Shown piece by piece: positions 3,070 to 63,369 of a stretch of DNA of 64,000 bases. The translations under genes and the position numbers were made by a program. Positions within the stretch are counted from its first letter, which is position 1, and the number at the start of each line of letters is the position of its first letter. The notes below the pieces were generated by a model that was given only the letters and a program-made list of their open reading frames with translations, was not told the origin of the DNA and made no database searches. This stretch comes from Phycisphaera sp. Lineage in GTDB: Bacteria; Planctomycetota; Phycisphaerae; Phycisphaerales; Phycisphaeraceae. The stretch lies in NCBI GenBank assembly GCA_016125215.1, contig WGMF01000009.1, forward strand, positions 1 through 64,000, written 5' to 3'.

Positions 3070-3328
3070 TACATTATACCTTCGATCTACGGGATATCGG
3101 CTGAACCAATTAATCATTTCTAGATTTTGTACCTATTTTCAGCACGAACATGATTTAGGTTGCGTAAAGTACGGATTAATAAATAGATAAACCTTCCCGA
3201 TTCAGAGGGGATGGTTACAGGTTGCTGGAGGGTCCTGCGGGTGGCTGGAAGACCCGTTGCAGGCTGAGGGGCAATCGGACTGCCTACATCAATCGGCGCG
3301 CGGGAAAGATCGCTTTTATGCCTCGTGC

Positions 3329-8190: not shown

Positions 8191-8388
8191 AGGGAACCTC
8201 ACGAAGTTGACAGACGTTCTATCATCGTTACATCGTCAAGAATTATGCATGGCGTTTGTTATATGGGTTTAGACAATCAGTGGTTTAAACCCTGGTGTGT
8301 TGTATGGAATATAGACGGCTTTGGTTAGTCATCGTGTAGCGACCACCTTCCCACAGCGGTCACCGGGGCTACGCCATGCGGTGTCCTG

Positions 8389-9270
8389 CTATTCCTGGTA
8401 GTCCAACGGGATGACACGATTGAGAATATTGATGTATTTAGAGGAGGGAACAGAGTTGGCCGGGATACTATAGTTTTTAACAGCTCCGTCTTTACCCGCG
8501 TAATTGCCGGACATCCTCGGAAAGATGCCTGGTATGCCTGGGCTTGGTGGGCTTTGAGTGACCCAGAGCGATCCACTCTGGTAATACTCTGGCTGTAGTT
8601 CGTTGTGATTGGTTTGTCGATTCACTCCCGGCCAGCCACCATAATGAATGGCGATGTCAGAAGCCAGCAGGTTGTAATACTTGCCTGTTTTCGCGGGGTA
8701 AAGCCAGTTATCCGTCATTCTGCGCATCAGTCCACCCAACGGTTGGTAGTGCCATGTATCATCTTGCTGAGAATTACCGTTGCCGGGGATAGTCACCCCG
8801 TCCGCCAGAGGTTGTCCGTTGACGTCGGTTTCGATGATTTTCGGGCCCAACCCCCCGATGTCGGCTCCCGAAGGGTTGCCCTTCATATCGAACATCAGGT
8901 TGTATTGCGCGTTGCCACTGTTGGCGGCTTCATCTTTCGGCGAGTTGGGGCATCGGTAAAATGATTCGAGACCGTTAGAGTAATAGGGCTTGAGGATCGG
9001 TCGGATATCCATCTCGCTGCCGGCACCAATCGTAATGAATCTGGTGCGGGTGGCACCACGCTTGGGGTACCATTTATTACTGTCCAACGCGTAAGTTGTC
9101 AGGCCGGTCACGATCTGTCTTAAGTTTGCTGCGCAGGCCACTTCTCGGGCTTTATACCTCGCCCGCTTGAGCGCCGGCAGCAGCAGCGCAACGAGCAGGA
9201 CCACGATTGAAATCACCACAAGCAGTTCGACAAGGGTGAACGCACGGGGCTGTTGTTGGGGGGTTTTCAT
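8389..9270 (-). CDS. pseudopilin-like secreted protein (prepilin-type N-terminal domain)
   Basis: 293 aa. The leader [10 protein letters not shown] ends in Ala at -1 before [22 protein letters not shown], as in the gene at 7378, so these two form a subgroup within the five paralogues. The region [20 protein letters not shown] matches the paralogues. Near the C-terminus [11 protein letters not shown] takes the place of the usual DGSV motif. A predicted surface or envelope protein of unknown function. A terminator at 9317-9360, belonging to the PEP-CTERM gene, separates it from the upstream gene, so it must have its own promoter between about 9271 and 9316. Confidence 0.9.
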
Positions 9271-17041: not shown

Positions 17042-18925
17042 TCATCGCAGGCGAAGTTCCGAGCTGATCCTGATTCGGCGTGTTGCATCGCCGCGCTTGA
17101 TTTCAATCCTATAGGTGTCGTGTTTTTCCTTACGAAGCGTGAGGCCCGCCTTTCGGGTACCCGGGCAGAGCGCGACCACGTGCAGGTTGTCGGTCACACG
17201 TTCTTTGCCCATCCAGCGGAAGATGGTCGTCTGTTCGCCACGTGGCAAGGGCGGCATGCCGCGTGACAACTGCATCACGCCCCCCTGCATCGCCGCGAAG
17301 GTCATCTGCAATTGTTCTTTGCCCTGGGTCAGTGCGACGTGGTTCTTACCGAGTTTGTATTTTGCGTAGGTGTGGTAGCGCGACTCGATGCCCAACTCAA
17401 CCACCGGGCTGTTGGCCACCACGTGATCGATGACGAGCCAGTAAGCGTCGTCGACAAACAGGAACAAGCGTCCGATGAACTTCGCGGGCATGCGCTGGAG
17501 ATAAATGCCCGTGGCGTCGATGCGGACACCGAGGAGACCCTTAGCCTTGACGACCTCGGTCTTCTTACACACGGCATCGCTCGCAGGCCCGAGCCCTTCG
17601 ACGAAAAGCGTGCTCTTGGCCGCGGCCGAACGCGGGTAGATCTCCGAGCCGCGCCTGCCGAACGTCGTGGTGAGATAACCCGTGTCTTTCTGGTCCGTGA
17701 TAAAGACCTCGCCGTGGGCCTGACAGTGGAAACTCAACAGGTCCACCATGCCGTGGCCCATGACCTTGGCCGACCCGCCGCGGATGGACATGCGCAGCTT
17801 CGGGAAGGCCTCGTCATCCGCCAGCGCCGCCCAGTCCATCCCCTTGTAGACCCGCGCGACGGGGACTTTCTTTTTGCTGTGCACCGCTTCGAGCCGTGCG
17901 AGCTCATCGTCGGTCGGGATCACGTCGGCTGCGTAGAGCAGGTCGCCGTTGGCGACATAGGGCCCGGGGCGTTTGGCTTTTCTGCGCGGCGTGTTTTTTA
18001 GGTAAGCCGCGGCCCGCAGCGCAGCATTTTTGAGTTTCAACCGTTCTGCCATCCGGAAATAGAAACACGTCGGGTGCCAGCCATCGTTGTCGCCAAACGT
18101 GATACCGGTAAAGTCGACGGGGAAGTTGAGCGATTGGCCGATCTCTTTGATCTTGAGCGCCGGGTGCTTTCTGCCGGTCGCGTTTTCCCAGCTCAGCACG
18201 TAACGCATGGCGTAGTTCATGCCGTAGTTCCAGTAGCCCGTGCCCTCGTGGCAACCCCCGCCGTTGGTGACATAGGAACTGAAATACTCCGCCAGGGATT
18301 TCTCGACAAACGGGATCAACGGCTGCGCATCGGGCCGATCGTCGTAGAACGCCAGCGCCATAACGCCCATGCCGCCGCAGCACACGCCGTTCCAGTTCGA
18401 CCACGCCTTGTTGGCCCACCACGGCGGGGCGGTCAGACACTGCACAGCCTGCTTCATGTGGAAACGATCGATCACCGCGAAGAAGGTTTTCTGTTCGTCA
18501 GAGGTCAGGTCGGGACGGAAGTGGTCGTACATCAGGCCGATGGCGGTGGACTGTTCGCCGTAGGAGAGGCAGAAGGGCAGCTTGGGTTCGGCGGGGGTAT
18601 TGACGTTGGCCTCGCAACTGATCTGGTTCCACTTGAGCAGGCCGGCCAGGTGCTTGATCGCCGCGGCGCGGTACTTGGCTTTGCGTGAAAGTATCCATGC
18701 GCACGTCAGGCATTCGAGGTGGCTCTGCACGACGCGCGCCGCCTGACCGTAAGCCGGCTCTTGCCCCTCACGGAATGGCGCGGTGCGTGTGAGCCGATCC
18801 GCGTCACTCAAGACCTTGCGTGCGCCTTCGCGCAGGGCGGGGCTGTGCAGCTTGCTCAGAAGGTCCGTAGCGGTCTGTGATGTGACCCAAAGGCGTGGTG
18901 AGTTGACCAGATGGAGATTTGCCAT
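17042..18925 (-). CDS. heparinase II/III-like polysaccharide lyase family protein
   Basis: 627 aa, no evident signal peptide. Residues about 1-340 are helical (alpha/alpha toroid) with WSNWNGVCCGG (about 175-185) and CHEGTGYWNYGMNYA (about 225-239), motifs of heparinase II/III and alginate-lyase-type toroids. About 360-620 is beta-rich (GHGMVDLLSFHCQAHGEVFI; YWLVIDHVVAN), like the heparinase beta-sandwich. Family members cut uronic-acid-containing glycans by beta-elimination. The exact PL family cannot be fixed from motifs. It lies 64 bp downstream of the DUF6785 membrane protein gene and is probably cotranscribed with it. Without a signal peptide it would act on imported oligosaccharides. 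Confidence 0.82.
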   Translation of the reverse strand: MANLHLVNSPRLWVTSQTATDLLSKLHSPALREGARKVLSDADRLTRTAPFREGQEPAYGQAARVVQSHLECLTCAWILSRKAKYRAAAIKHLAGLLKWNQISCEANVNTPAEPKLPFCLSYGEQSTAIGLMYDHFRPDLTSDEQKTFFAVIDRFHMKQAVQCLTAPPWWANKAWSNWNGVCCGGMGVMALAFYDDRPDAQPLIPFVEKSLAEYFSSYVTNGGGCHEGTGYWNYGMNYAMRYVLSWENATGRKHPALKIKEIGQSLNFPVDFTGITFGDNDGWHPTCFYFRMAERLKLKNAALRAAAYLKNTPRRKAKRPGPYVANGDLLYAADVIPTDDELARLEAVHSKKKVPVARVYKGMDWAALADDEAFPKLRMSIRGGSAKVMGHGMVDLLSFHCQAHGEVFITDQKDTGYLTTTFGRRGSEIYPRSAAAKSTLFVEGLGPASDAVCKKTEVVKAKGLLGVRIDATGIYLQRMPAKFIGRLFLFVDDAYWLVIDHVVANSPVVELGIESRYHTYAKYKLGKNHVALTQGKEQLQMTFAAMQGGVMQLSRGMPPLPRGEQTTIFRWMGKERVTDNLHVVALCPGTRKAGLTLRKEKHDTYRIEIKRGDATRRIRISSELRLR

Positions 18926-35992: not shown

Positions 35993-37822
35993 TTATTTGC
36001 CTGGGATGTGGATGCCCCAGAGTCCGGGGTTGTCTTCGATGACTTTGATGAGTCCGAGCAAGCCGCCCCAGTGGTAGAAGGCGTCGCTGTTTTCCTTGCC
36101 GCAGCCGTCGCCGGTGCTGGCGTCGTAGTTCTCGTGGACGTGGCCGTGTTCGCGCCACTCTTTGAGCAGGATCGCCTCGGACTTCTCGACCAGCGCCTTG
36201 CGGGCGTCGGGCAGGTCGTAGTTGCACAGCCCCAGGTAGACGAGGAAGTTCATCGGTGCCCAGATCGGGCCGCGCCAGTAGTTTTGATCGGGGAAGGCGG
36301 GGTCGTTGCGAGCGATGGAGGGCAGGACCCACTGGCCCCAGAACTCTTCGGGGTTGAAGAGGTGTTCATCGACCATGCGTCGGGCCTGCTGCTGCGTGGG
36401 GACTCCGGCGAGCATGGGGTAGAAGTGCGTCGGGGAGAGTCGCGTCTGGAACTCGCCGGTGTCGAGGCGCTTGTTGAGGAACAGCCCGGTCTTCTCGCAC
36501 CAGAGTGTTTGGAGATTTATGGTGTAACGCTCAGCCCGTTCGTGGAGTTCGTCGATGACTCGATCCCGACCGATGCGTTTGGCCAGGTCCGCCATCGCGT
36601 TGCAGTCGGCGATGTAGAACGACATCAGCCCGACGTCGGCAAACTGCATGCGGTGGACGCTGGCGTCGTAGGGCATGTCCTGGTACATGGGCGAGTTGTC
36701 CAGGCCCGATTCGAGCGCGGAGGCAAAGCGCGTGTTGATGGGCATGTCATCGGGCGCCCAGGTCGGGTTGGCGGTGTAGGGCGTCGATCCCCAGCAGAGG
36801 TAGCCGTCCTGTTCGCGGTGCTGCGGCCACCAGCGGTTCCACGTGAGCAGGTTGTCGAAGAGGCGTTGGGCTAAAACATCTTCCCCGAAGCGTTCACACA
36901 GGGCTTTCGTGGTGATCGCGCCGACGGGGGGCTGGGAACGGTCGAGGGTTCGATAGCCCCCGCCCTGCGCGAAGTTGGGGATAAAGCCCCGTTCGGTGAT
37001 CTCGTCAGTGATCGCGGTGGCGTTGGAGTAAGCCAGTTCCTTGTTCTCGATGCCGGCCATCCACGCGGCAAAGTAGGTGTCCCAGTCGAAGAGCACCCAC
37101 CCGCCGCGGTTGCAACTCCAGATGCGACTGACAGGCGAGATCACACGCTCGTTGAACGGGTCGTAGATCGTGTCCCACGCCAGGCAGGCCTGCATCGCGT
37201 GGTGGCTCTCGCTCAGGTCAGATCGGCTGTCGTGATATGTTTTGGCAACACGGTCGATCACCCGGCCCGCTTCGTCCAGGCGCGATGCGTTCGACGTGAT
37301 GCACACCGGTTGATCGAGCATCACAAGCAGGTAGGGTGTGCTGAGTTCGACAATCGGCTCGTTGTGCCGGGTGTTGCCGGTGACCGCGACCTCGAGGGTG
37401 GTCTTATCATTGGTCACGATAACCTTATCACCCTTGCGTTGCGCGTAACCGGGTCGGTTCCACAGGACCGAGGCCGAGACTGTGAGCCCCAAGACCTGAC
37501 CCGTGGTGTGCAGGGGGGTGACACGTGCGAACCAGTCGCCATCATCGACCGCGGTTTCAATCTTGTGCCTCGTGTCAGCCCATTCAATCTCTAATGAAGT
37601 GTAAGACCCGTCGTAAGCGTGCGGGCCGGGCATGATCTGCTCGGTCCTGCTCTTGTCGCGTGGGCGCGGCCCGGGCTTTCTGCCGATGAGCGCTTCGCTC
37701 AGGTACATCGTTCGGCCGTAGGTCTTCAAGCCCAGCGAGATTGCGAAGCTTTCAGGCAGCAGAACGTGTGATAGCACGCTGCGGACGTTCCAGGTGTTCC
37801 AACCGTGGGATAGCTGATTCAT
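35993..37822 (-). CDS. GH63/MGH1-like (alpha/alpha)6-barrel glycoside hydrolase
   Basis: 609 aa, no signal peptide. A beta-rich N-terminal part (about 1-210) precedes an alpha/alpha barrel. WVLFDWDTYFAAWMAG, GFIPNFAQGGGYRTLDRSQPPVGA, YLCWGSTPY and the C-terminal YWRGPIWAPMNFLVYLGL are hallmarks of GH63, GH37 and mannosylglycerate-hydrolase-like enzymes. The Asp in FDWD and an acidic residue late in the barrel are the expected catalytic pair. These enzymes invert alpha-glycosidic linkages (glucose, mannose or related sugars); the sugar here is not identifiable. Spaced 9 bp from the FAD gene downstream and 5 bp from the M60 gene upstream, so surely one transcript. Confidence 0.87.
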   Translation of the reverse strand: MNQLSHGWNTWNVRSVLSHVLLPESFAISLGLKTYGRTMYLSEALIGRKPGPRPRDKSRTEQIMPGPHAYDGSYTSLEIEWADTRHKIETAVDDGDWFARVTPLHTTGQVLGLTVSASVLWNRPGYAQRKGDKVIVTNDKTTLEVAVTGNTRHNEPIVELSTPYLLVMLDQPVCITSNASRLDEAGRVIDRVAKTYHDSRSDLSESHHAMQACLAWDTIYDPFNERVISPVSRIWSCNRGGWVLFDWDTYFAAWMAGIENKELAYSNATAITDEITERGFIPNFAQGGGYRTLDRSQPPVGAITTKALCERFGEDVLAQRLFDNLLTWNRWWPQHREQDGYLCWGSTPYTANPTWAPDDMPINTRFASALESGLDNSPMYQDMPYDASVHRMQFADVGLMSFYIADCNAMADLAKRIGRDRVIDELHERAERYTINLQTLWCEKTGLFLNKRLDTGEFQTRLSPTHFYPMLAGVPTQQQARRMVDEHLFNPEEFWGQWVLPSIARNDPAFPDQNYWRGPIWAPMNFLVYLGLCNYDLPDARKALVEKSEAILLKEWREHGHVHENYDASTGDGCGKENSDAFYHWGGLLGLIKVIEDNPGLWGIHIPGK

Positions 37823-37827
37823 GGTTC

Positions 37828-39849
37828 TTACGGCCTTCCGTTGGGGAAATAAAGGTCGATGATGTCTTGCACCCGTTTGCGTGCCAGTTCAGCCGATTGG
37901 GTGTTGTACCGGCCCCATTGCTGTTCGTGCTCGTGCTTGGACTGCACGTCTTTATCTTTAGCAATGGGCTGCTGCCCCCACCACTTGACGGCGAAATCCC
38001 GGAAAGCTGCGTTGTCCGGGGGGACCAGCGTTTTGTAATGCACAAGTGTGTCGTAGACCTTGGCTGACGGGGGCAGGTTTTCCTTCTCCACCACGGCCTT
38101 GAGCGCCTCGGGATTTTGCGGGTGCTTGCCCCAGAAGTGCATCAATGGCCTGAGGTCTTGGCCGGCACACCTTGACAGACGCAGGGTCAGTTCATCGTCA
38201 TCGGGTTTGTGTTCACCCGATGTCCGACCCGCCTCAAAGTCATCATTGAGCTGTTTCCAGGATGCGCTCAGCACGTCCCAACCGTACAGCCGAACGACCT
38301 CCACGTACTTGGCAAAACCCTGGTGCTGGTACCTGCAGAGCTGCGCGTCCATCGGCAACCCCTCTTCGAAGCTTGTGCAGGTCATCCAGGAAACCGCGGT
38401 GTTGTCGAGTGTGCAGGCGGGGTTGTATTTATCCATCTTCGACATGGCAAACGCCCGCTCGAGGTCCTGGCCGTAGCCCTTATTCATCACCGCGATGTGG
38501 AGCAGGTTGACCGCGGCCTCTTCCTCGCCCGCATACTTGGGGAACTTGTAGTTGTGGCCCAGCTCATGGAAGAACCAACTCGGGACCAACTCCGGCCCCT
38601 TGAGCAGGTGGTTGTTGGCCACCCCGTCGATGACCTTCACCCCGTGCATAGCGTGGTTGCCCGTGGGGTAGCCCGGCTTCATCTTCCCGGTGACCCCTTG
38701 TTGGATGTCCACCGATATGTAGTAGGATTCGCGAGGCTGCTCACGGGGCAGGCCCAGCAGGTCGTTGCAGATGTCCATCGCCTTGTCCCACTTGTCCAAC
38801 AGGGCCTTGGGGTCGTCTAGGCCGACGATCCAACTCGTGGGCACCAGCATCATGAACTTTTCGGAACGGATATCCGCCCACGGGGCTTTGAGGTTGCGTT
38901 CGACTTTCTGCCACTGTTCAAGCGAAGTGGCGTTGAAACTCTCTGTGGTGAAATAGGGCGAACGGACCGCGTTGCGGATCGAGACCTCGACCACCCCGGC
39001 CGCGGCGTTCACGGGCACCTCGATATAGATCCCCCCGCCCAACGGATTGGCCACCGATATCTCACGCGACTGGATTGGGTAGGTCAGAGAGATCGAGTTG
39101 AGCCGTAACGCCCTGACGGTGTGACCTTGGTTGTAGGAATGACCACCGACGCGGACCCGGAAACCCTTGCCCACCAGTCCGTCGGGCACGGTGACGGTGG
39201 CGATGGAACCCGGGGCGAGGAATGCGCCGGTCGGCCGACGGGCGAAAGCGGTCCACTTCTCATCTCGACCCCAGACCCTCGGATTGCTCGCGTTAATCCT
39301 GGAAATGATCTTTTCGTTGGGGTCGCTCGGCGGGTCCACCGCGCCGGGGAAGTTCGCTGAGCAACCAAAATTGTAACCGTCGAGCAGGTCACGGTAACGC
39401 GTGAGGGTTTGGCTGTTGTAATCCTTGTTCAGGATCAACTGCATCACGATAAAGTCCACCCAATGGATATCCGTGGCCGGTGGGTGGATGTTGTCGCGGT
39501 CGTCACGGTTGAACTTTCTTCCCGAGACCCAGAGTGGCCCGTAAACCTTGTCGTAAGTGGTCGCCAGCTTCAGGGCCGCCTCGATAGTCTGCTCATCGTG
39601 TGCCATGAAATCCGCGTTGGCCTGGATCGTCTTGAGCGCCGAATCGATCTGGGTGTCATCGAGTGGGTTTTTCCCGTCGAGATGGTCCTGCAGCAAGGCG
39701 AACGCCGAGATCAAAGACCCTCTGCCCCGGGGCACGGACGGTGTGTCACCATCGTCTTGCGTCGCAAGCGTGATTCCCCCGGCCAGACAGGTCATGACGA
39801 GGAGCAGTCGGGAGACCCATTTGATGAGATGTACTCTGAAATCCGACAT
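37828..39849 (-). CDS. secreted M60-family (enhancin/mucinase-like) metallopeptidase
   Basis: 673 aa. The signal peptide is about residues 1-29 (WVSRLLLVMTCLAGGITLA). A helical N-terminal part is followed by a beta domain (about 205-300: IATVTVPDGLVGKGFRVRVGGHSYN) like the M60 N-terminal domain. The catalytic domain (about 320-560) carries the zinc motif HELGH at 428-432 and a cluster of Glu at 442-444 as third ligand, matching HExxH...E of M60. M60 peptidases cleave O-glycosylated proteins such as mucins. Its presence in a glycosidase run with GH101-like and GH20 enzymes supports a glycoprotein substrate. Lies 5 bp from the GH63-like gene. Confidence 0.9.
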   Translation of the reverse strand: MSDFRVHLIKWVSRLLLVMTCLAGGITLATQDDGDTPSVPRGRGSLISAFALLQDHLDGKNPLDDTQIDSALKTIQANADFMAHDEQTIEAALKLATTYDKVYGPLWVSGRKFNRDDRDNIHPPATDIHWVDFIVMQLILNKDYNSQTLTRYRDLLDGYNFGCSANFPGAVDPPSDPNEKIISRINASNPRVWGRDEKWTAFARRPTGAFLAPGSIATVTVPDGLVGKGFRVRVGGHSYNQGHTVRALRLNSISLTYPIQSREISVANPLGGGIYIEVPVNAAAGVVEVSIRNAVRSPYFTTESFNATSLEQWQKVERNLKAPWADIRSEKFMMLVPTSWIVGLDDPKALLDKWDKAMDICNDLLGLPREQPRESYYISVDIQQGVTGKMKPGYPTGNHAMHGVKVIDGVANNHLLKGPELVPSWFFHELGHNYKFPKYAGEEEAAVNLLHIAVMNKGYGQDLERAFAMSKMDKYNPACTLDNTAVSWMTCTSFEEGLPMDAQLCRYQHQGFAKYVEVVRLYGWDVLSASWKQLNDDFEAGRTSGEHKPDDDELTLRLSRCAGQDLRPLMHFWGKHPQNPEALKAVVEKENLPPSAKVYDTLVHYKTLVPPDNAAFRDFAVKWWGQQPIAKDKDVQSKHEHEQQWGRYNTQSAELARKRVQDIIDLYFPNGRP

Positions 39850-42303: not shown

Positions 42304-43719
42304 TCAGACAGTCACCGCGCCCTCGGGTCGGTTGAGGTTGTAACGGAAGGCGTCGGATTCGTAGAAGTCAACGGATTGGCCACAGGTGCGTGCCCACCAG
42401 TCGTCGGCCAGAGCGGCGAGTTTGTCTTTTTGCTTCTTGTATGCGGGATCGAACGCGACGCAGTGCAACTCGTCCGGGTCTTTGGCCAGGTCGTAGAGTT
42501 CTTCGGTGTTGTCGTCGCCGTAGTAACGGACGTATTTCATCGTGGCGGTGCGGACACCGTAGAACGGGTGCAGGCCCCACCACGCGGCGTAGTGCTCGAA
42601 GAAGACGTGGCCGTCTTCGGGTGCGTGGTCCCTGTGAAGGGCGCGCACCATGTCGTTGTTGTCGAAGGGTTCGGGGCCTTCGATACCCGCCAGTTCCAGC
42701 AGCGCCGCACCGAAGTCGGTCGAGACGATCACGTCGTCGATGGTCTTGCGCCGGCTTGCCATGCCCACGGGGAGTTTGAGTATGCAGGGGATGTTGTAAA
42801 GCTCCTCGTAGGGCATGGTGCCCTTACGTGTGAAACGGTGGCCGCCCATCATGTCGCCGTGGTCGGAGAGGAAGAGGACGACGGTGTTGTCCCACAGGCC
42901 CTTTTGTTTGAAGAGTTCGATGACCTGCCCGCAGGCCTTGTCGACAGCCGAGATCATGGTGTAATACTGCGCCATCTCTTCGCGGAGTTTGGATTCGCTT
43001 TCAAGCTTGTGCGGGCCGCGCTCGACGTGTTTCTTGAGGAAGGCGGGCTTGCCCTCGAAGGTTTCTTCGTAATAGCTTTTGGGCAGGACCATCTCATCGG
43101 GTTTGAAGCGTTCGCGCCACTCGTCTTCAAAGTAGAAGGGGGGGTGGGGGAGGTTGGTGTCGAACATGAAGAGCAGGGGCTTGCCACCCGGTTCGTGATT
43201 CGTAAGCCAATCGAGGCCCTGTTTGAGGTACTTGTAGTGCGTGGAGGTCTGGGGCCACTCGCCCTGTGTGGAGTCGATGCCTTGTGAGTGGAGTTCCTCA
43301 TGCACACGGATGCGTTCGATGGGTTCGTGACCCTTGGGGAAGTGTCCGTCGAGGCACTCGCCGACGTCAAAGCCCATGGTCTTGAGCGGCGAGCCGAGGT
43401 GGCTCTTGCCGAAGTGGGCGGTGGTGTAGCCCGCGTCGCGGAAGACGTTGACAAAGGTGCGGTTCTTCGTGGTCAGGTGGCCGCAGTGGTTGAAGAAGCC
43501 GTAGTTGACCATGACGTTGCATTCATGGGGCGACATGCCGGTCATGAGCGCGCAGCGCGAGGGCACGCACTGTCCGTGGACGGTGATGGCGTTGGTGAAG
43601 TGGACGCCCTCAGCGGCGAGGGCGTCGAGGTTGGGCGTGTAAGCGATGCCGTCCACAAAGCCCATGCGTCTGGCTTGCATCTGGTCGCACATGAGGATGA
43701 GGATATTGGGTTTCGTCAT
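42304..43719 (-). CDS. sulfatase (S1-type, choline-sulfatase-like)
   Basis: 471 aa from the ATG at 43719; the extension to 43827 lies wholly within the upstream gene. PNILILMCDQMQARRMG has the metal Asp; CVPSR at about 51-55 is the formylglycine motif, followed by CALMTGMSPHE. HFGKSHLGSP and FLSDHGDMMGGH are further metal and substrate motifs. No signal peptide. The ATG overlaps the stop of the GH20 gene by 4 bp, so the pair is translationally coupled, which suggests a sulfated hexosamine as substrate (inference). Confidence 0.93.
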   Translation of the reverse strand: MTKPNILILMCDQMQARRMGFVDGIAYTPNLDALAAEGVHFTNAITVHGQCVPSRCALMTGMSPHECNVMVNYGFFNHCGHLTTKNRTFVNVFRDAGYTTAHFGKSHLGSPLKTMGFDVGECLDGHFPKGHEPIERIRVHEELHSQGIDSTQGEWPQTSTHYKYLKQGLDWLTNHEPGGKPLLFMFDTNLPHPPFYFEDEWRERFKPDEMVLPKSYYEETFEGKPAFLKKHVERGPHKLESESKLREEMAQYYTMISAVDKACGQVIELFKQKGLWDNTVVLFLSDHGDMMGGHRFTRKGTMPYEELYNIPCILKLPVGMASRRKTIDDVIVSTDFGAALLELAGIEGPEPFDNNDMVRALHRDHAPEDGHVFFEHYAAWWGLHPFYGVRTATMKYVRYYGDDNTEELYDLAKDPDELHCVAFDPAYKKQKDKLAALADDWWARTCGQSVDFYESDAFRYNLNRPEGAVTV

Positions 43720-45119
43720 GGCTGAACGTGAGGGGTTGAGGTCGAAATAACAGTGAGGATTTTGCAGAGCGAGTCGTATTCTTCCTTCAACGGCGCGAGG
43801 CGGGTGTGGAGGTATTCTTCGATCCACGAGGGTTCAACGAGCCCGTCCAAGCTCCTGCGGACCTCATCCCCCACATGCCCGGAGTCGTCGATCATTTTGC
43901 CCAGTTGTGGCAGGACTTTCATCCCCATCCTCGTGCTTTTAGCGCTGGGACGCCGTGGGTCCACGCCGGCAAGTGTCAACTGTTGACGTGTGAACTGGAC
44001 CTGTTGCCAGGCACGCCTGCGCAGGTCGGTCAGGCGTTCCATCGCATCACGGCAGGATACAAAACGCGCTTTCTCATTGAATGTCTGAAGGGCTTCGACG
44101 CAGCTGGCCAATCCACCCTCCGGGGGTGCGCCGTCGTGGAGGATCACCGCGACCAGTGCGAGCGTGTCCAGCGCCGCGTCGATGGGGATGCACTGCACGG
44201 TGTCGGTGGCCCATCGACTCCAACCGGTGGCGATCACGCCGACATAGTCCAGACGTTGTGCGATCTGGGCCCAGGCCAGCGCGTTGACCTGCCGCTGCGT
44301 CGGGTCGGGTCGGTCGGCCATGTGTCGTTCGGGGGTGTCGCCCGCCCCCTTGTAAGCGGTCGCGCCCCAGAGCGTAAAGCCGTGGTCCTTGAAGCGTTGA
44401 CAGTATTCGCTCTTGTAATGGCTCTGCGTGTGGTCGGGATGACCGTAGTAACCCCATGTCATGAGGTCGCACTTTTCTGCCAGTGCGTGCAGCGCATCGC
44501 TTTGCCAGTGGGTCATCATGTCGTGCCAGAGGATCGGGCGGATGCCGCGTGCGATGAGCGCGTCGAGGATGGGTTCGACGTGTTGCAGGTAGAGCGCGCC
44601 CTTGCCGTACTTTTCTATGTAGGAAGCGCATCGGGGGTTTTGGCCGAACGTCCACGACTCGTCACCGCCGAGGTGGAAGTGCGTAACGCCGGGCATGAGT
44701 CGCAGCACGTCGTCGACCATCTTTTGAACAAGCTCACGCGAAGCGGGGTCGAGCGGGTTGAGGCTCGATGCAACGTCGGGGACTTCGCGCAGCTTCTCAT
44801 AGCCCGGCACGGAGAGGGGCGTCTCCATGTGTCCGAGGCACTGGACAAGCGGGATGCAATCGAGGCCCAGTTCGCTGGCCACACCCATGAAGCGCTGCAC
44901 ATCCGCCGGCGTGTAAGCGGTCGGGCTTCGGAAGCGTTCGTCGACCGTCCACGGGAAAGAATCTTCCCATTCGATGAGCACGGTGTCGTACCGCAAGCCG
45001 GCTAAAAGCCTGAGCAAACAGACGAAGCGTTCGGGCGTGGGGGGCAGGCCTTTGAGGTCCAGGTGGACGCCGCGCCGGGGGATCGCGGGGGTGCTGCGAT
45101 GGAATAGCCCAGCGGTCAT
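43716..45119 (-). CDS. glycoside hydrolase family 20-like beta-N-acetylhexosaminidase
   Basis: 467 aa, no signal peptide. The barrel opens with RRGVHLDLKGLPPTPERF and YDTVLIEWEDSFPW. THFHLGGDESWTFG has the catalytic Asp153-Glu154 pair of GH20, and WHDMMTHW and LMTWGYYG lie on later strands. It lacks the usual N-terminal GH20b domain, so it belongs to a compact subgroup. It would remove terminal GlcNAc or GalNAc by substrate-assisted catalysis. Four-base overlaps at both ends tie it to the GH101-like gene upstream and the sulfatase downstream, an obvious functional trio on amino sugars. Confidence 0.9.
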   Translation of the reverse strand: MTAGLFHRSTPAIPRRGVHLDLKGLPPTPERFVCLLRLLAGLRYDTVLIEWEDSFPWTVDERFRSPTAYTPADVQRFMGVASELGLDCIPLVQCLGHMETPLSVPGYEKLREVPDVASSLNPLDPASRELVQKMVDDVLRLMPGVTHFHLGGDESWTFGQNPRCASYIEKYGKGALYLQHVEPILDALIARGIRPILWHDMMTHWQSDALHALAEKCDLMTWGYYGHPDHTQSHYKSEYCQRFKDHGFTLWGATAYKGAGDTPERHMADRPDPTQRQVNALAWAQIAQRLDYVGVIATGWSRWATDTVQCIPIDAALDTLALVAVILHDGAPPEGGLASCVEALQTFNEKARFVSCRDAMERLTDLRRRAWQQVQFTRQQLTLAGVDPRRPSAKSTRMGMKVLPQLGKMIDDSGHVGDEVRRSLDGLVEPSWIEEYLHTRLAPLKEEYDSLCKILTVISTSTPHVQP

Positions 45120-46384
45120 CGGGTGCCCTCTCCGTCGGTGCGAGTGAGCATCACCGCTTCATCCGGGTTGATGCTCAGTGTCAATCGTCCGCCCTCGACG
45201 GTGACGGTTCCCAGGGGCTTTGACGGCTCGGATGAAAGTCGGCTGATTGCAAGCTCGCGGGCATTTTGCCAGCCCTCGGGGAGCGGCCACGTCTTGTTTT
45301 CGCAGCCGTCTTTGCTGTACGCGATCAGGGTGGGCTTGTCGCACCACAGCGCGGGCATGCAGATGTCGTTGCCGTCGATCAGGCCCTGTGGGGTGTCGCC
45401 GCCACCGGGATTGTTTTTGTAGTACCAGGGCAGGACTTTAAGGTAAAACTCCCGCTTCCAGGCGGCGTGTCGCTCGTCCTCGGGTTGGCCCCACAGCTCG
45501 CGTGCTTCTTCCATGACGTTGGAGCAGTAAAGATCGTCGGGCAGGTGGGCGACGGCCTCGCCGCCGTGCCACGTCCAGGCCTGCAGACCGACGAACATGT
45601 CCCCGCGGAAACCGTTGGGCCACTCGGAGGTCACGTCGATCCCCCGGTCACGCCAGTAGCGATAGATCCGTCGCTGCGTGGCGACTTCCTGCTCACGCGG
45701 GTAGCCGAGGTAGGGCGAGATCAAACCGTGGCGTTCGAGCGGTCGTGCGCCGAGGAAGGCGTCGATGTGGACCGTCTTGCCCTCGACGAGTTCGGGGACC
45801 CTCTCGATGAGACCGTCGATGCGTTTCTGAGCCAGGCCGAGCTTCCACTCCCGGGTGTAGCTGATCTGGTAAGAGGTCATGCCGCCCCACGCCTTGCCGG
45901 GGATCACTTTGCCTTCGATGTCTTTGGCAATGATGTCTTTAGCAACATACTCGTCCCAGAGCGGGCTGTCCTCGTAGGCGTCGAACATGTTCAGGTGGAG
46001 GCTGACGGTGGCGCGGTAGCGGCGGGCCTCACGGATGAGCCAGCGCAGGCTGTCGAGCGCGGTGGCGTCTTGCTTGCGTTTGAGGTGCGGGTTGACCTCG
46101 CTCCAGTCGGGGTATTTCGAGTCGTGGCCCTCGTGATGCCAGCCGATGAGATAGACAATCTGCGGGATGCCTTGCGTCAGGTTGTGGACCTTGCGGATGG
46201 CGTCGAGGGTGCCCTCGAAGGTGAGATAGCACTTGTCCATCTTGCCGTTGCCGTCGCGGGTGGCAAGCATCATGAGATAGACCAGGCTCTGGTGATAGGG
46301 CAAGAGCCACGGCCGCTCGGGCTTCATGGTTTTGGAGTAGTCGTAGAGTTCGCCGCTGGGTTCGGGCATGATCTTCAATCCCAT
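45116..46384 (-). CDS. GH101-like endo-alpha-N-acetylgalactosaminidase-type protein (small, catalytic barrel only)
   Basis: 422 aa, no signal peptide. GWHHEGHDSKYPDWSEVN resembles the GHDSGH region I associate with GH101, VSLHLNMFDAY is a substrate-pocket strand, TVHIDAFLGA offers the nucleophile Asp near 208, and VTSEWPNGF the acid Glu near 254. Known GH101 enzymes are very large secreted proteins releasing Gal-GalNAc from Ser/Thr; this one is only the barrel with a short beta tail and is intracellular. It could act on GalNAc-linked amino acids or short glycopeptides, or on another alpha-linked sugar. First gene of the long run; the intergenic stretch 46385-46535 upstream may hold the promoter. 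Paralogue at 47296. Confidence 0.75.
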   Translation of the reverse strand: MGLKIMPEPSGELYDYSKTMKPERPWLLPYHQSLVYLMMLATRDGNGKMDKCYLTFEGTLDAIRKVHNLTQGIPQIVYLIGWHHEGHDSKYPDWSEVNPHLKRKQDATALDSLRWLIREARRYRATVSLHLNMFDAYEDSPLWDEYVAKDIIAKDIEGKVIPGKAWGGMTSYQISYTREWKLGLAQKRIDGLIERVPELVEGKTVHIDAFLGARPLERHGLISPYLGYPREQEVATQRRIYRYWRDRGIDVTSEWPNGFRGDMFVGLQAWTWHGGEAVAHLPDDLYCSNVMEEARELWGQPEDERHAAWKREFYLKVLPWYYKNNPGGGDTPQGLIDGNDICMPALWCDKPTLIAYSKDGCENKTWPLPEGWQNARELAISRLSSEPSKPLGTVTVEGGRLTLSINPDEAVMLTRTDGEGTR

Positions 46385-46535
46385 CTAACCGCAAATTTAC
46401 CACTTATTGTGGGAGGGGGCATCACCGCTCAACGGCAATGACCTTGCAAGGTTGCGACAGGCTTTCGCTCTGCGGAATAAGTTTCGCACACAAGACGCCT
46501 CAACTTGTCAAATCCCTTTCGATCAGCCCGTAGGG
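46385..46535. promoter_or_regulatory. probable promoter region between the two gene runs
   Basis: 151 bp between the metallophosphoesterase stop and the GH101-like start, by far the largest gap in the 15773-58163 block apart from 48589-48701. No clear hairpin with a T-run or canonical boxes stands out; placing the promoter of the 30-kb run here is inference from spacing. Confidence 0.35.
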
Positions 46536-47258
46536 TCATGGGTCTTTATCATCCCCGTAATGGAAGAGTTCACTTGTGATGTGCTCCCCGTCTACGTTCA
46601 CAAGGGCAAACGTGAAAGGGGATTCACATAGGGCGGGGACCACCATCGTCGAAAAACCACCACCGTCAGCCTCACGAAGCGGCCGGCCGCGGTGGAAGTG
46701 ACCGCTCACCGCGAGCGAGTATCTCGACCGACGCATGGCCTCGAACACCGCTTCGTGATTGGTATAGCCGTAGGGTGTTTCACGACGGGGTTCACCCACC
46801 GGGACATGCTGCAAAGCAATCCGGGGTCCGGCGTGACCTTCCACCTGTTGGGCCATTCTCCTTAGCCCATTCGGGTCCCTCTCCGCGTTGTAACCGGGTC
46901 GCTCCGGGTCAACAAAAGGTACAAGACGTACGTCATTCAAATCGAGACGGTTGTGACGTTCGAAGATTCCGAAAAACTTCCGCACGTTGGGGTCGTGGTT
47001 GCCGGGGATCGCAAGCCAAGTACAAGCCAGACGTTCAAGAATCTGCCGGAGTTCTAAGAGCAACCCCTCGGCTTCCGGGGCTTCGGGGTCATCGATCAGG
47101 TCTCCCAAGACCGCAACGCCATCGGGTTTGATATCGTTGTTTAACCGATCAACCGTTCGCCTCAACAGCGCCGCGCCACGCTGGCTCTTGCGGTTGGCCA
47201 GAGCGCTGGGTGTGCGACTGTAATGGATGTCCGTGATGAGAGCGATACGAGTAGCCAT
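46536..47258 (-). CDS. calcineurin-like metallophosphoesterase
   Basis: 240 aa, cytoplasmic. The five metal-binding blocks are present: LITDIHY (DxH), VLGDLIDD (GDxxD), AIPGNHDP (GNHD), ALQHVP and VSGHFHRG (GHxH). The family hydrolyses phosphomonoesters or phosphodiesters, including nucleotides and sugar phosphates. It ends the second gene run, 37 bp after the second GH101-like gene, and may serve metabolism of the released sugars; no specific substrate can be named. Confidence 0.9.
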   Translation of the reverse strand: MATRIALITDIHYSRTPSALANRKSQRGAALLRRTVDRLNNDIKPDGVAVLGDLIDDPEAPEAEGLLLELRQILERLACTWLAIPGNHDPNVRKFFGIFERHNRLDLNDVRLVPFVDPERPGYNAERDPNGLRRMAQQVEGHAGPRIALQHVPVGEPRRETPYGYTNHEAVFEAMRRSRYSLAVSGHFHRGRPLREADGGGFSTMVVPALCESPFTFALVNVDGEHITSELFHYGDDKDP

Positions 47259-47295
47259 GGTCCTGGAGCAGACGAAGTATTAGCCGAGGTGTTCA

Positions 47296-48588
47296 CTAGG
47301 CGTGCGGTGTGATTCTGACGGCCTGTTTTGGTTGGAGAACAAGGAAGACCTCGCGGTTTGAGACGGCGAGTGTGGTGAGTGGCTTGGGGCCTTCGACGGT
47401 GAGTGAACAGACATCAACCTTGCCCTCGCTTTGCCAAGACCTGGGCAGTCGCCATCGCCTGTGGGCGTAACCGTGCTTGCTGTATGCAATGAGCGCGGGC
47501 TTATCGCACCAGAGAGCCGGCATACAAATATTTTCGTTGTCTCCAAGCCCGCCGTAATCGTAATCCGCGGCGGGGTGGTTGCTATGGTAATACGGCAGTG
47601 TTTCGAGGCAGAAGCGCTCAACAAAGTCGGGCGGCGGTTTCACGTCATCAAACTGGGCGTGGTAAGGCGAAGTGGTGTACAGCGCGTCCGGCAGGTCGGA
47701 GAGATTCCGTGAGTCCGCGGCGTAGGGAGTAAGCCCGACGCAGCGATCCACACGCATCCCCCACGCGTGTTCCACGGCCGGATCGACGCCGTGTTCCCGC
47801 CAGTAGCGCAGGATTTTTCGGATGGTGTTTGCCTCTTCCTCTTTGCTGTAGCCGAGGTAAGGGCTGATCGGACCGTTCTGGTCTTTCATGCGAGCGCCGA
47901 GGAACGCGTCGATATACACACAGCCGTTTTCGCGCAGCTCGGGGACCATTTCAAGCAGGTTGTCGATACGCTTCTGAGTCAGGCCGTGCTTCCACTCCTG
48001 CGTGTAGCTGATGTGGTAGCAGTCCATGCCCGACCACCGGTTGCCGATGATGGGTTTGCTGTCCGGGTCCTTGGCGATGATGTCTTTCTCTAGGTATTCA
48101 TCGAAAAGCGGGCTGTCGGCATAAGCATCAAACATGTTGACGTGGAGCGTGACCAGGCAGTTGTACCGACGCGCCTCTCGAAACAGCCACCGAAGGCTGT
48201 CGAGCGCGGTGGCGTCTTGCTCGCGCTTGAGGTATTTGCACACCTCGCCCCAGGCGGGGTACTTCGAGTCGTGCCCCTCGTATTGCCAGCCGGTGAGCAA
48301 GACCATCTGCGGGATATTGCAGGTGATGTTGCTCACGCGACGGATCGCTTCAAGAGAGTCCTCGAAGCGCATACAGACCTCTTGGATGCTGCCATCGCCA
48401 AAAGTCCACCTCTGGCCGCGTGGCCTGTTGGCCGCCATGGCGGGGTCGCCGCTCTGAAAGCCCGTGCCGCTGCGTGACGCGTTGAAGTGCCGATAGACGA
48501 AGCGCTGGTGCCAGTCCACGATCCAGGGCCGCTCCGGCTTCATGGTCTTTTTGTAATCGTAGTACTCGCCGGTGGGTTCGTGTTTCAT
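47296..48588 (-). CDS. GH101-like endo-alpha-N-acetylgalactosaminidase-type protein (paralogue)
   Basis: 430 aa from the ATG at 48588, where MKHEPTGEYYDYKKTMKPERPW aligns with the start of the paralogue at 45116; an upstream start at 48642 is possible. GWQYEGHDSKYPAWGEV, VTLHVNMFDAY, CVYIDAFLGA (nucleophile Asp) and DPAVEHAWG (acid Glu) match the paralogue. It has an insert after the first conserved block (SGTGFQSGDPAM...) that the paralogue lacks. No signal peptide. Two such copies in separate transcripts suggest distinct specificities. As with its partner, the family call rests on motif memory. Confidence 0.75.
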   Translation of the reverse strand: MKHEPTGEYYDYKKTMKPERPWIVDWHQRFVYRHFNASRSGTGFQSGDPAMAANRPRGQRWTFGDGSIQEVCMRFEDSLEAIRRVSNITCNIPQMVLLTGWQYEGHDSKYPAWGEVCKYLKREQDATALDSLRWLFREARRYNCLVTLHVNMFDAYADSPLFDEYLEKDIIAKDPDSKPIIGNRWSGMDCYHISYTQEWKHGLTQKRIDNLLEMVPELRENGCVYIDAFLGARMKDQNGPISPYLGYSKEEEANTIRKILRYWREHGVDPAVEHAWGMRVDRCVGLTPYAADSRNLSDLPDALYTTSPYHAQFDDVKPPPDFVERFCLETLPYYHSNHPAADYDYGGLGDNENICMPALWCDKPALIAYSKHGYAHRRWRLPRSWQSEGKVDVCSLTVEGPKPLTTLAVSNREVFLVLQPKQAVRITPHA

Positions 48589-48701: not shown

Positions 48702-49358
48702 TCACGTCGGGGGCGCGTGGGTGAAACGGGCGACCTGTTGCGCCAGCAGCCGGTAGCCCTCTTCGGTGAAGTGAACGTCACCGGGTTGCGTGAAGAGATC
48801 GGGGGTGAAGGTCGACGAAAGCGCGTGCAGGTCGTTGATGGGGATGTTGTGGGCTTGCATGATTCTGCGGGCAACATCGTTGTAACGCCGCTCGTCTCCT
48901 TCGAATCGACCGGCTTCGCCTGGCGGGACAACGGTGGTGCTGGCCCAGATCAATCGTTTGGCTGAGGGTTTCATGCGACCCACGAGCGTTTCGAGGTTAG
49001 TACGGTATTCCTCGATCGGGACCGAGATGGTGCCCCTAATCTTGTCACGGTTTCCGTAGACCTTCGAGTCGGGGTGGCGGTGGCAAAGGTCGTGCAGGCC
49101 CCAGTTGAAGTGGATCACGTCCCACCGTCGGCCATCCAACCACTCGTCAAGACGTTCGAGTCCAAGGCGTGTGTCACCGCAGTTGGCGCGGGGACGCTCA
49201 ACGTTACAGCGGCCACGCAGCATCTCACGCACGATCGGCGTGTAGCCCTGCGAGATCGAGTCGCCGATGATGAACAGACTCGGCAGGCATGCGTCCGGGC
49301 CCGTGGCGTTCGAGGCATCGAGCCTGCGATTGTCCCGCTCGGGGGTGTAGAACTCCAT
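48702..49358 (-). CDS. SGNH/GDSL hydrolase
   Basis: 218 aa from the ATG at 49358 (a GTG at 49370 is the alternative). LFIIGDSISQGYTP is block I with the nucleophile Ser; ANCGDTRLGLERLD supplies the block II Gly; HFNWGLHDL replaces the block III GxND; and DLFTQPGDVHFTEEGY holds the C-terminal Asp-x-x-His pair. A small lipase/esterase-fold enzyme without a signal peptide, probably a carbohydrate deacetylase given its place next to the DUF5703 and GH42 genes. Substrate unknown. Confidence 0.9.
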   Translation of the reverse strand: MEFYTPERDNRRLDASNATGPDACLPSLFIIGDSISQGYTPIVREMLRGRCNVERPRANCGDTRLGLERLDEWLDGRRWDVIHFNWGLHDLCHRHPDSKVYGNRDKIRGTISVPIEEYRTNLETLVGRMKPSAKRLIWASTTVVPPGEAGRFEGDERRYNDVARRIMQAHNIPINDLHALSSTFTPDLFTQPGDVHFTEEGYRLLAQQVARFTHAPPT

Positions 49359-49385
49359 CGCGATAAGCACCTCGGGCCGCCTGCA

Positions 49386-51792: not shown

Positions 51793-53859
51793 TTACTTTC
51801 GAGTCGGCCTGCTCATCACGCGCACCGCGTAGTGTTCGAGTGTGAGTTTGCCACGCAGGGCCTTACCGCTGAGCACGTCGGTGTAGTCCGTGTCGAGCGC
51901 GACCTCGACGGGCTGCCTGTTGTAGTTCTGCAGGAAGAGATAGTCAGTCTTGCCGTCGGTGCGGAGCTGCGCGGTGACGCCTTTGGGCAACTCCGTGCTC
52001 ATCACCGGCTTGATCGACAGGTCGCCGATCAATTTCTTGTAAAACAGCGTGAGGAAGTCCTGCCCCATCCGCGCCGCGAGGTAATAGGCTTTGCCTTTGC
52101 CGAATGTCTTGACGGTGACGGCGGGGGACCCCGCAAAATACTGGTCGCCATATGTGGCCAGCACTTTCGACCCCTCGGCGTGGATCACCGAACAGGTGTC
52201 CACCGCCTTGAACTCGCCCGAGATGCCCAGCGCGTTGCCCTTGCTCATGGCAACCTTCACCGACTCGTGCGGGTAGTAACTCTGGCTCTCTTCCTCCCAC
52301 ACGCCAAAGACTTCACGCAACCCCCGGCCCGGCACGCCGCCGAGGAAGCACAGGTCCGACTCGTCCACCACCGCGCTCCAGTAGGTCATCACCGCCGTGC
52401 CGCCACGCTCGACGAACGCCCTGAGCCGATCCGCAAAACCGTCACGCAGCATGTAAGAGAGCGGCAGCGTGACGAGCTTGTACCGATCCAAATCCCCCGT
52501 CTGATCGATCACGTCCACCGGCACACCCATCGACCAGAACGGCCGGTAGTGCGAGTCGCAATCCTGTCGGTACTTGGTGTTCTCACCGAGATAGACCCGC
52601 GCGCCCTCACGGATCGCCCACTCGTTTTCCCAGTCCTGCACGAGTGCGACGCTCGGCTGCACCGAAGTGCCCACGACAGCGTCGAGCTTCGCAAGCGCTT
52701 GCCCAACCTCCGCGACCTCCTTGAACTCGCGCGTCTTCTCCGTGCCTTCATGGTCCACCACCGCGCCGTGGAATTTCTCCATGCACCCCCGGCTCTTGCG
52801 CCACTGGAAGTATTGCACCGTGTCCGAACCATGCGCCACGGCCTGCAAACTCGAAAGCATGTGCATCCCCGGCTCCTTGCGTTTCTTCACACGCCCGCGC
52901 GTCGGGATGCTCGGCACGCTCTCCATCAGCATCCAAGGCTTACCGGCTTTCATCGTTCGGCACTGGTCGTGCATCCGTGCGGTGGCGACCGCTTCGCCCA
53001 GTTCGTCGGCGTGTTCGTGCCAGTTGGGGTACGAGTCCCATGTCACCACGTCCACCGCGCGGGCAAAGGCCCAGTAGTCAAGCGTCGTCGTGCCGTTCAT
53101 GAAGTTGGTCGTCACCGGTACGCCGGGCGTCAGTTCACGCAGCGGCACCGCTTCCTGATTGAAAAAGTCGATGGTCTGATGCGTCTTGAAACGATCCCAA
53201 TCGATCATCAAGCCGTGGATGCCTTTGTCGGTCGGGAGGATGTCTTCCCACGTCGGGAAGGCGTGCGACCAGAAACTCGACCAGTAGGCGTGGTTGAGTC
53301 TGTCGAGGTCGTGCTGGTAACGATCGCGCAGCCATTCCTGGAACCACTTGATGCACAGCTCGCAGTGACAGTCCCCGCCGTTGTATTCGTTGGAGACGTG
53401 CCAGACGAGCAGCGCGGGGTGGTCCTTGTAACGCTCCGCGAGCTTGCGATTGATCGTCTGACACTTCTGCCGGTAGACGGGTGAGGATCGACAGTGGTTG
53501 TGGCGACCGCCGTGGGGTTGGCGCGAGCCATCGGCGTTCACACGGCGAATCTCCGGGTAGGTCCGACTCATCCAAGCGGGCTTGGACCCGCTGGGCGTCG
53601 CCAGCACGGCATAAGCGTTGTGGGCCGCGAGCTTGTCCATGATCGTGTCGAGCCAACCGAACTCGAACTGCCCCTCTTGCGGTTCGAGCGACGACCAGGA
53701 GAAGATGCCGATGGACATCGCGTTGCAGCCCGAGAGCTTCATCAGTCGCATGTCCTCGTCCCAGACTTCCGGGGTGCGGATCCACTGGTCGGGGTTGTAG
53801 TCTCCGCCGTGGAGCATGTGCGGGCACTTGGGGTGGATCGGGGGGTAACGTGTTGTCAT
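51793..53859 (-). CDS. glycoside hydrolase family 42 beta-galactosidase
   Basis: 688 aa from the ATG at 53859. HMLHGGDYNPDQW starts the barrel; WHVSNEYNG gives the acid/base Glu158 and WMLMESVPS the nucleophile Glu313. Cys123 and the CHCELC cluster (164-169) form the zinc site known in GH42. Trimerisation (TYWSAVVDESDL, YLGGVPGRG-like) and C-terminal beta domains follow. No signal peptide. It hydrolyses beta-D-galactosides, often short oligosaccharides, and complements the GH2 enzyme at 4847. Flanked by DUF5703 (about 20 bp) and a sulfatase (33 bp). Confidence 0.95.
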   Translation of the reverse strand: MTTRYPPIHPKCPHMLHGGDYNPDQWIRTPEVWDEDMRLMKLSGCNAMSIGIFSWSSLEPQEGQFEFGWLDTIMDKLAAHNAYAVLATPSGSKPAWMSRTYPEIRRVNADGSRQPHGGRHNHCRSSPVYRQKCQTINRKLAERYKDHPALLVWHVSNEYNGGDCHCELCIKWFQEWLRDRYQHDLDRLNHAYWSSFWSHAFPTWEDILPTDKGIHGLMIDWDRFKTHQTIDFFNQEAVPLRELTPGVPVTTNFMNGTTTLDYWAFARAVDVVTWDSYPNWHEHADELGEAVATARMHDQCRTMKAGKPWMLMESVPSIPTRGRVKKRKEPGMHMLSSLQAVAHGSDTVQYFQWRKSRGCMEKFHGAVVDHEGTEKTREFKEVAEVGQALAKLDAVVGTSVQPSVALVQDWENEWAIREGARVYLGENTKYRQDCDSHYRPFWSMGVPVDVIDQTGDLDRYKLVTLPLSYMLRDGFADRLRAFVERGGTAVMTYWSAVVDESDLCFLGGVPGRGLREVFGVWEEESQSYYPHESVKVAMSKGNALGISGEFKAVDTCSVIHAEGSKVLATYGDQYFAGSPAVTVKTFGKGKAYYLAARMGQDFLTLFYKKLIGDLSIKPVMSTELPKGVTAQLRTDGKTDYLFLQNYNRQPVEVALDTDYTDVLSGKALRGKLTLEHYAVRVMSRPTRK

Positions 53860-53892
53860 GGTGGGGTACTCTACTAGGAAACCCAACGGCGA

Positions 53893-62022: not shown

Positions 62023-63369
62023 TCATGGGTTGGAGTGTCGGTCGGGCCAGAGTTCATCGTTGACCGTGCGCAGGAGTACGCGTGCGGCCACAGCGGAGGC
62101 TTCGCACAGACCTTTGACAGGGATATGGTCCGCTGTGTCGCCGGCCATGTGACAGGTGCCGCCGGTCGTCAGGCCCTCGCGTCCGCCGCCGAGCGCGAAC
62201 GCGGGCACACCGCGCCGAACGAACGCGGCATGGTCCGAGTGTTCGTGGTGGAACGTCTTGTAATCCAGGGTCAGGCCCATCTGCTGGCCCAGCGCGTGGG
62301 TGTAGCGACGTCGGCTTTCTTCGTCGTGGCATCCGTAGAAGTTGAGCGACCAGGGACCGCTGACCGGGGGCATGTCACAGTTGCACAACGTGCGGATGCG
62401 TGTCAGTTGCGCCTCATGGGCCTTGGCGTGATAGGCCGAGCCGACAAGGCCGATCTCCTCGCCGGCGAACCCGATGAAACGGACGGTGCGTTTGAGGTGC
62501 AGGTGGCACCTGGCCAGCAAACGGGCCACCTCCATCACCATCACGGCGCCGGCCGCGTTGTCGTAGGCCCCCGGGCCGATCTCGTGCGAGTCGAGGTGTC
62601 CACCGATCACAACGAGTTCATCGGGATACTCGTTGCCCACAAGTTCGCCGACGACATTCCACGTCGTGGCGGGTTCGTAGCCACAATCGGTGGTGAGTAC
62701 GAATTCCGTGTCGGGCACTTTGTGTGCCAGACCTTTGACGAGTTGGCCCGCTTCACGCCCGAGGCTGACGCAGGGGATGGCCCCGGGTGTCGCGTTGGTG
62801 ACGCTGCCGGTGCGGAATGCCCCGCCGGGGGTGGTGTTACAGATGATTAGGCCCGCCGCGCCCAGCGCCACGCTGTGCTCATAGACATCGTGCCGGTGGC
62901 GACCCGTGCCGAGTGTCAGCGCGATGTTCCCAGCCAAGGCGTCTTTGTGGCTGTCCAACTCTTCCGCCAGGCCCTTGCCGACATCGACAATCCTGCCGTG
63001 CAGACCCCCGCTCCCGGTCGGTGCGCTGTAGGGCAGGGCGTAGCATTCAAAGGTGTTCGGCGTGGGCTTGATGAAGCTCAGTGACGCGGGCTTGCCCCTG
63101 CGCCACGCGGTGAATTCAAACCCCTCCAGGTGTGCATCGACCAGGCCGTAGGATTTGAAACGGTCGAGCATGACATCGGCCGCGCAACGGTACCCCTCGG
63201 TCCCGGCGAAGCGTGGCCCGATGTCGACACACAGGGCTTTGAGGTTGCGGCCGACCTCGCAGGCACACTTCGATTCATCGGCAATCCGCTCATCGAACGA
63301 AGAGCAGGCGTTACATCTCCCTGTCGTGTGTGAGTCTGTATCCGTGTTTTGCATGGGTCCGGGCGTCAT
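62023..63369 (-). CDS. M28-family zinc peptidase (aminopeptidase-like)
   Basis: 448 aa, no signal peptide; an ATG at 63354 is an alternative start. A PA-domain-like insert (about 140-200: GNIALTLGTGRHRHDVYEHSVALGAAGLIICNT) is followed by the di-zinc core: VIGGHLDSHE (His near 257), YDNAAG (Asp), FAGEEIGLVGS (Glu pair), NCDMPP (Asp) and EHSDHAAFVRRGVPAFAL (last His). Such enzymes trim amino acids from peptides. In this context it could process peptides left after the M60 peptidase has cut a glycoprotein (inference). Gap of 74 bp to the PDZ/HEAT gene. Confidence 0.9.
   Translation of the reverse strand: MTPGPMQNTDTDSHTTGRCNACSSFDERIADESKCACEVGRNLKALCVDIGPRFAGTEGYRCAADVMLDRFKSYGLVDAHLEGFEFTAWRRGKPASLSFIKPTPNTFECYALPYSAPTGSGGLHGRIVDVGKGLAEELDSHKDALAGNIALTLGTGRHRHDVYEHSVALGAAGLIICNTTPGGAFRTGSVTNATPGAIPCVSLGREAGQLVKGLAHKVPDTEFVLTTDCGYEPATTWNVVGELVGNEYPDELVVIGGHLDSHEIGPGAYDNAAGAVMVMEVARLLARCHLHLKRTVRFIGFAGEEIGLVGSAYHAKAHEAQLTRIRTLCNCDMPPVSGPWSLNFYGCHDEESRRRYTHALGQQMGLTLDYKTFHHEHSDHAAFVRRGVPAFALGGGREGLTTGGTCHMAGDTADHIPVKGLCEASAVAARVLLRTVNDELWPDRHSNP

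Follow-up and report, generated by a model that had tools for sequence, protein, structure and literature searches.

Two small GH101-related proteins lacking signal peptides in a planctomycete carbohydrate-degradation gene cluster

The q1 and q2 genes and their neighborhood

The window analyzed here, a 64,000-nucleotide stretch of a Phycisphaera sp. genome (contig WGMF01000009.1, positions 1 to 64,000), carries on its minus strand two paralogous genes, both of which lie where a sequence-only reading had placed them and encode proteins of the sizes it gave. q1 (45116..46384) encodes a 422-aa GH101-related glycoside hydrolase, and q2 (47296..48588) encodes a 430-aa paralog when counted from its ATG, or a 448-aa protein if an upstream GTG at 48642 is taken as the start. 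The two proteins are 52% identical in a pairwise alignment, and each contains the EGHDSKYP block, the V[HY]IDAFLGA motif with its Asp (D208 in q1, D227 in q2), and the downstream Glu (E254 and E273) to which that reading had drawn attention. q2 also has a 23-residue low-confidence insert, which recurs in other members of the q2 subclade described below. The proteins had been described as miniatures without the GH101 accessory domains, and a Pfam scan agreed, finding no Gal_mutarotas_3, GH101_dom-5, or GalBD_like domain in q1 or q2; in contrast, L047, a true GH101 encoded in another genome of the class, carries Gal_mutarotas_3, GH101C, GH101_dom-5, CBM_4_9, and GalBD_like. The proposed lack of an export signal held in that a hydropathy heuristic detected no hydrophobic, signal-peptide-like stretch at either N terminus; the cytosolic site of action is what we infer from that absence.

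Along the minus strand, q2 is followed by a gene for a calcineurin-like metallophosphatase (46536..47258; 240 aa), absent from the sequence-only reading, and then by q1, a GH20-type β-N-acetylhexosaminidase-like gene (43716..45119; 467 aa, GGDE motif, no signal peptide), and a sulfatase gene. The ATG of the GH20 gene overlaps the stop codon of q1 (ATGA). Upstream of q2, and on the same strand, are genes for a GDSL esterase (48702..49370), a GH42 β-galactosidase (51793..53886), and an M28 peptidase (62023..63369), the last two proteins having no signal-peptide-like N terminus. On the other side, also on the minus strand, lie an M60 peptidase gene (37828..39849) and genes for an MGH1/GH63-like hydrolase (35993..37822) and a heparinase II/III-like protein (17042..18925). 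The M60 peptidase has a HELGH motif and a signal-peptide-like N terminus and is likely the extracellular glycopeptidase of the cluster. The minus strand further encodes a DUF5703 protein, a GH78-like protein, GH29, GH95, two SASA esterases, a DUF6785/6784 membrane protein, and all five Pfam-confirmed sulfatases of the window. Part of this arrangement is found again at another locus, L008, where relatives of q1, q2, the GH20, the MGH1-like hydrolase (63% identical and near the q1/q2 relatives), and the heparinase II/III-like protein (57% identical and directly upstream of the q1 relative) recur together; L008 also holds a weaker relative of the GDSL esterase.

Viewed as a whole, positions 17042-63369 (minus strand) form a long same-strand block that includes the five sulfatases, GH29, GH95, GH78-like, SASA, and M60 genes, along with a weak GH141-like protein. 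By the heuristic, few proteins of this block have a signal- or membrane-like start. The DUF6785/DUF6784 protein (18990-20987), with about ten hydrophobic segments, is the only candidate transporter recognized in the cluster. A promoter and terminator scan did no better than shuffled sequence. Elsewhere in the window, at 233-3117 and 7378-9270, five open reading frames have prepilin-type FTL[VI]EL N termini.

Family assignment and distribution of the export signal

Both proteins matched the Pfam family PF12905 (Glyco_hydro_101) well above its curated cut-off of 25 bits: q1 at 63.9 bits (E = 2e-17; profile positions 40-208 of 272) and q2 at 66.1 bits (E = 4.4e-18; positions 40-178 of 272). In phmmer searches of the PDB, the GH101 structures of EngBF and SpGH101 were matched by q1 at E = 1.6e-11 and ~1e-8 and by q2 at E ~1e-7 and 6e-7, respectively. 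No PF12905 match besides q1 and q2 was present in the 4.04-Mb source genome, and such proteins are rare in the class, with 3 of 397 sampled genomes, the source genome included, matching at E = 1e-15.

A pattern scan of GTDB species genomes with q1 as the query yielded 40 loci, and 36 proteins spanning several phyla were aligned. All 36 matched PF12905, while the C-terminal β-sandwich GH101C was matched weakly in 14 of them. Thirty-two columns are invariant, including G86-H87-D88, Y91, P92, H130, N132, D208, and E254 (q1 numbering). Compared as a profile with three true GH101s from one genome of the same class, the aligned family gave a probability of 99.5 and an E value of 1e-22. Small size is a trait of the family at large, not of q1 and q2 in particular.

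A tree of 45 catalytic segments, whose root was not inferred from the data and in which GH101 is represented by only three sequences, all drawn from a single genome and sitting on a long branch, contained three supported groups: the three true GH101s, ten DUF5696/GH129-like proteins, and seven signal-less proteins, namely q1, q2, and five others from the PVC group. The q1/q2 clade is thus separate from the three GH101s tested. Of the two options that the sequence-only reading had left side by side, a new GH101 subfamily or a sister family, this separation, taken with the missing domains and the active-site differences described below, favors the latter, and we call q1 and q2 members of a sister family of GH101 rather than plain GH101 enzymes. 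The seven proteins split further into two subclades, one around q1 and the other around q2, both represented at L008, so that the q1/q2 duplication is either older than that split or was moved by transfer.

By the hydropathy heuristic, a signal-peptide-like start is found in 0 of the 7 members of the q1/q2 clade and in 27 of the 29 aligned members outside it; by this measure, lacking a signal peptide sets that clade apart. The members bearing signal peptides do not make up one clade of their own, and one protein, L049, was not firmly placed. The signal peptide was likely lost in the q1/q2 clade. This clade is a small, apparently non-exported branch of the sister family, which may already be filed in CAZy. 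Our literature search, partial in coverage and with CAZy outside it, returned no prior description of this family; GH101 has been named in Kiritimatiellaeota genomes, and those assignments may include proteins of the q1/q2 family.

Predicted structure and active site

AlphaFold (AF2) models of q1 and q2, built without templates, had mean pLDDT values of 90.6 and 89.7. For both models, VIA-align ranked GH101 structures first (Z ~27), followed by the GH129 enzyme NagBb (Z ~22 over ~290 residues), the ZgGH129 3,6-anhydro-D-galactosidase structures (Z 17-18), and GH36, GH31, and GH13 (Z ~15-17). The q1 model aligned to 5a56 with a Z of 27.3 (2.8 Å over 359 residues) and to 2zxq with a Z of 26.9 (2.5 Å over 356 residues), and the q2 model aligned to 3ecq with a Z of 27.2 (3.1 Å over 358 residues). 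The structure prediction thus bears out the GH101-like fold that had been proposed: a barrel with a C-terminal β-sandwich of the GH101C type. An unrelated TIM-barrel family is out, given the Z of ~15-17 for GH36, GH31, and GH13 against 27 for GH101. In both models the barrel begins near the N terminus, and NagBb is matched only from about residue 240, so that its N-terminal domain has no counterpart.

Using a published list of SpGH101 catalytic-site contacts (PMC10949244), we mapped the active site by profile comparison. D88, H130, N132, and D208 of q1 correspond to D658, H694, N696, and D764 of SpGH101, and all four are invariant in the 36-member alignment; D88, H130, and N132 are the predicted substrate contacts and D208 (D227 in q2) the predicted nucleophile. 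Of the catalytic pair suggested earlier, D208 is backed by its pairing with D764. E254 did not pair by sequence, as MAFFT, pairwise, and segment hhalign alignments to the GH101 acid/base (SpGH101 E796) failed or were ambiguous. Nonetheless, E254 follows strand 250-253, the next strand after that of D208, and is invariant in the 36 aligned members. Because sequence alignment is insufficient here, it is on this topology and invariance that we read E254, and likewise E273 of q2, as the putative acid/base.

Other parts of the GH101 active site differ. The position of SpGH101 His661 is occupied by Tyr91 in q1, and this Tyr is invariant in the aligned family. The Trp-lid motif GWxWLD is absent from q1 and q2, which have AWGGM and RWSGM at the aligned positions; W166 of q1 falls within this W-x-G-G alignment region, which resembles that of the DUF5696 proteins compared. 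In addition, the structural alignment to SpGH101 stops near residue 1047. In SpGH101, K1156, E1253, and D1254 are placed around the distal subsite (PMC12550630), and the region that holds them is therefore absent from q1 and q2. These differences bear on the reading of q1 and q2 as miniature core-1 endo-enzymes that free Gal-β-1,3-GalNAc from O-glycopeptides as classical GH101 enzymes do. The Pfam match, the fold, and most catalytic-site residues are indeed GH101-like, but with the Trp lid missing, His661 replaced, and the distal-subsite region gone, we regard endo action as improbable. Rather, since the domains that close the distal end of the GH101 active site are missing, exo action is the most likely mode.

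Thus, q1 and q2 share with SpGH101 and EngBF the barrel and β-sandwich, PF12905, the EGHDS block, the HxN motif, the nucleophile Asp, and a Glu ending the next strand, whereas at 422-430 aa, as opposed to more than 1,000 aa, they lack the N-terminal super-sandwich, dom-5, GalBD, the Trp lid, and the signal peptide. With GH129 (NagBb and ZgGH129 DagB) they share the barrel fold and the proposed exo mode; unlike GH129, they have no N-terminal domain and no reported DUF5696 profile match, carry a GH101-type β-sandwich tail, and are nearer GH101 by structure score.

Proposed function and rival readings

Retaining α-glycosidase chemistry is well supported by the fold, the residues, and the partner genes. 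Beyond this, we give an even chance to the proposal that q1 and q2 are cytosolic retaining exo-α-N-acetylgalactosaminidases or α-galactosidases acting on short glycans or glycopeptides brought in from outside. The exported M60 peptidase would act first, and the short glycans or glycopeptides released would then be imported. In the cytosol, q1 and q2 would act together with the GH20 enzyme whose gene overlaps q1. Within a (β/α)8 barrel followed by the GH101-type β-sandwich, D208/D227 would serve as the nucleophile and E254/E273 as the acid/base, and a terminal α-linked GalNAc (or Gal) would be removed in an exo manner.

The M60 setting suggested by the sequence-only reading is plausible, in view of the exported-type M60 peptidase nearby and a precedent in Bacteroides thetaiotaomicron. 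There, the polysaccharide utilization locus BT4240-50 combines an M60L glycopeptidase with a GH109 α-N-acetylgalactosaminidase, a GH2 enzyme, and a GalNAc kinase in a working pairing (PMC11992087). As in the window, an exported M60 peptidase is paired with glycosidases for mucin-type glycopeptides. However, the α-N-acetylgalactosaminidase of BT4240-50 belongs to GH109 and is predicted to be periplasmic, whereas q1 and q2 are GH101-like and without a signal peptide, and the GalNAc kinase of that locus has no identified counterpart in the window's cluster.

The closest relative of q1 is found in a different setting. At L007 (9986-14302), it lies 2 bp upstream of genes for NamZ (an exo-N-acetylmuramidase) and an APH (kinase)/nucleotidyltransferase fusion, amid MurNAc-salvage-like and housekeeping genes rather than in a mucin locus. 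This arrangement hints at a role in amino-sugar salvage, and q1 and q2 could accordingly work in the cytosol on envelope glycans, of the cell itself or of other bacteria, instead of imported mucin-like material. We consider such a role very unlikely for the window's proteins, however, as both the window and the L008 copies sit amid carbohydrate-degradation genes. No clear GalNAc kinase emerged from the APH proteins of the source genome or when the kinase fusion of L007 was used as a query; the latter search had one match (24%), to the nucleotidyltransferase part of the fusion.

The sugar itself is less firmly indicated than the chemistry. The GH129-like DagB cleaves 3,6-anhydro-galactose from carrageenan oligosaccharides and is encoded in a sulfatase-rich locus; the fold therefore leaves the sugar unfixed. 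With the same fold and chemistry, q1 and q2 might instead cut another galacto-type linkage, as α-galactosidases or 3,6-anhydro-galactosidases. Their substrate would then be a galactan bearing sulfate and fucose, a polymer that the fucosidases, GH42, and the five sulfatases would also attack. The structural matches to the ZgGH129 enzymes are compatible with this, as are the GH78 gene of the window and the GH110 and GH97 genes next to exported relatives, and the window's many GH29, GH95, and sulfatase genes may indicate a polymer that is rich in fucose and sulfated. That gene content, the replacement of His661 by Tyr, and the nonmucin setting of L007 all count against our preferred proposal. On the other hand, the structure score is higher for GH101 (27) than for GH129 (18-22), the presence of GH123 and GH20 among the partners speaks for N-acetylhexosamines, and no carrageenan-type gene (GH16, GH82, or GH127) occurs among the Pfam-scanned window proteins. 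On balance, the galactan reading is the main rival, though a rather unlikely one, and we favor exo removal of α-GalNAc over that of α-Gal or anhydro-Gal from a sulfated glycan with a confidence of about one half.

The relatives provide further context. Those with a signal-peptide-like start (from Runella, Niabella, Echinicola, and others) adjoin SusC/D, GH110, GH123, GH35, GH95, and GH97 genes. Some family members are fused to other domains: to GH110 (L012:4316-7543), to GDSL, NPCBM, and GH27 (L033:8854-13452), or to GH130 (L075:3381-6092). Two proteins contain two PF12905 stretches each (L038:8549-11326 and L043:36-2816). Except for GH130 and the fucosidases, these partner families work on galactose- or GalNAc-type sugars. 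L007, described above, and loci with unassigned flanks depart from this picture. We tentatively propose, as somewhat short of an even chance, that these proteins make up a glycoside hydrolase family of their own, a sister of GH101 and GH129, whose members are exo-α-N-acetylgalactosaminidases or α-galactosidases. Bacteroidota and several other phyla would export them, and a single non-exported PVC clade would finish glycopeptide degradation in the cytosol.

The large size of characterized GH101 enzymes led one group to attempt the design of a minimal GH101 scaffold (PMC10949244). If our proposal is true, a natural GH101-type enzyme of 420-430 residues could serve directly as a compact template for the release of O-glycans or the Tn sugar, and the pair would illustrate how O-glycopeptides may be processed in the planctomycete cytosol. 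The 36-member aligned family, drawn from several phyla, supplies named targets for assays.

Two relatives depart from the common pattern. A 270-aa cut-down q2-like open reading frame (L074:9619-10431), with no related neighbors recognized, resembles q2 only over about its first 210 residues. In a genome of the source's own family, a further member (L003:763-2286) reads IGSDSKSP in place of EGHDSKYP, has Gln at the His130 position, and aligns an Asp with Glu254; judging from these substitutions, it may be inactive or altered.
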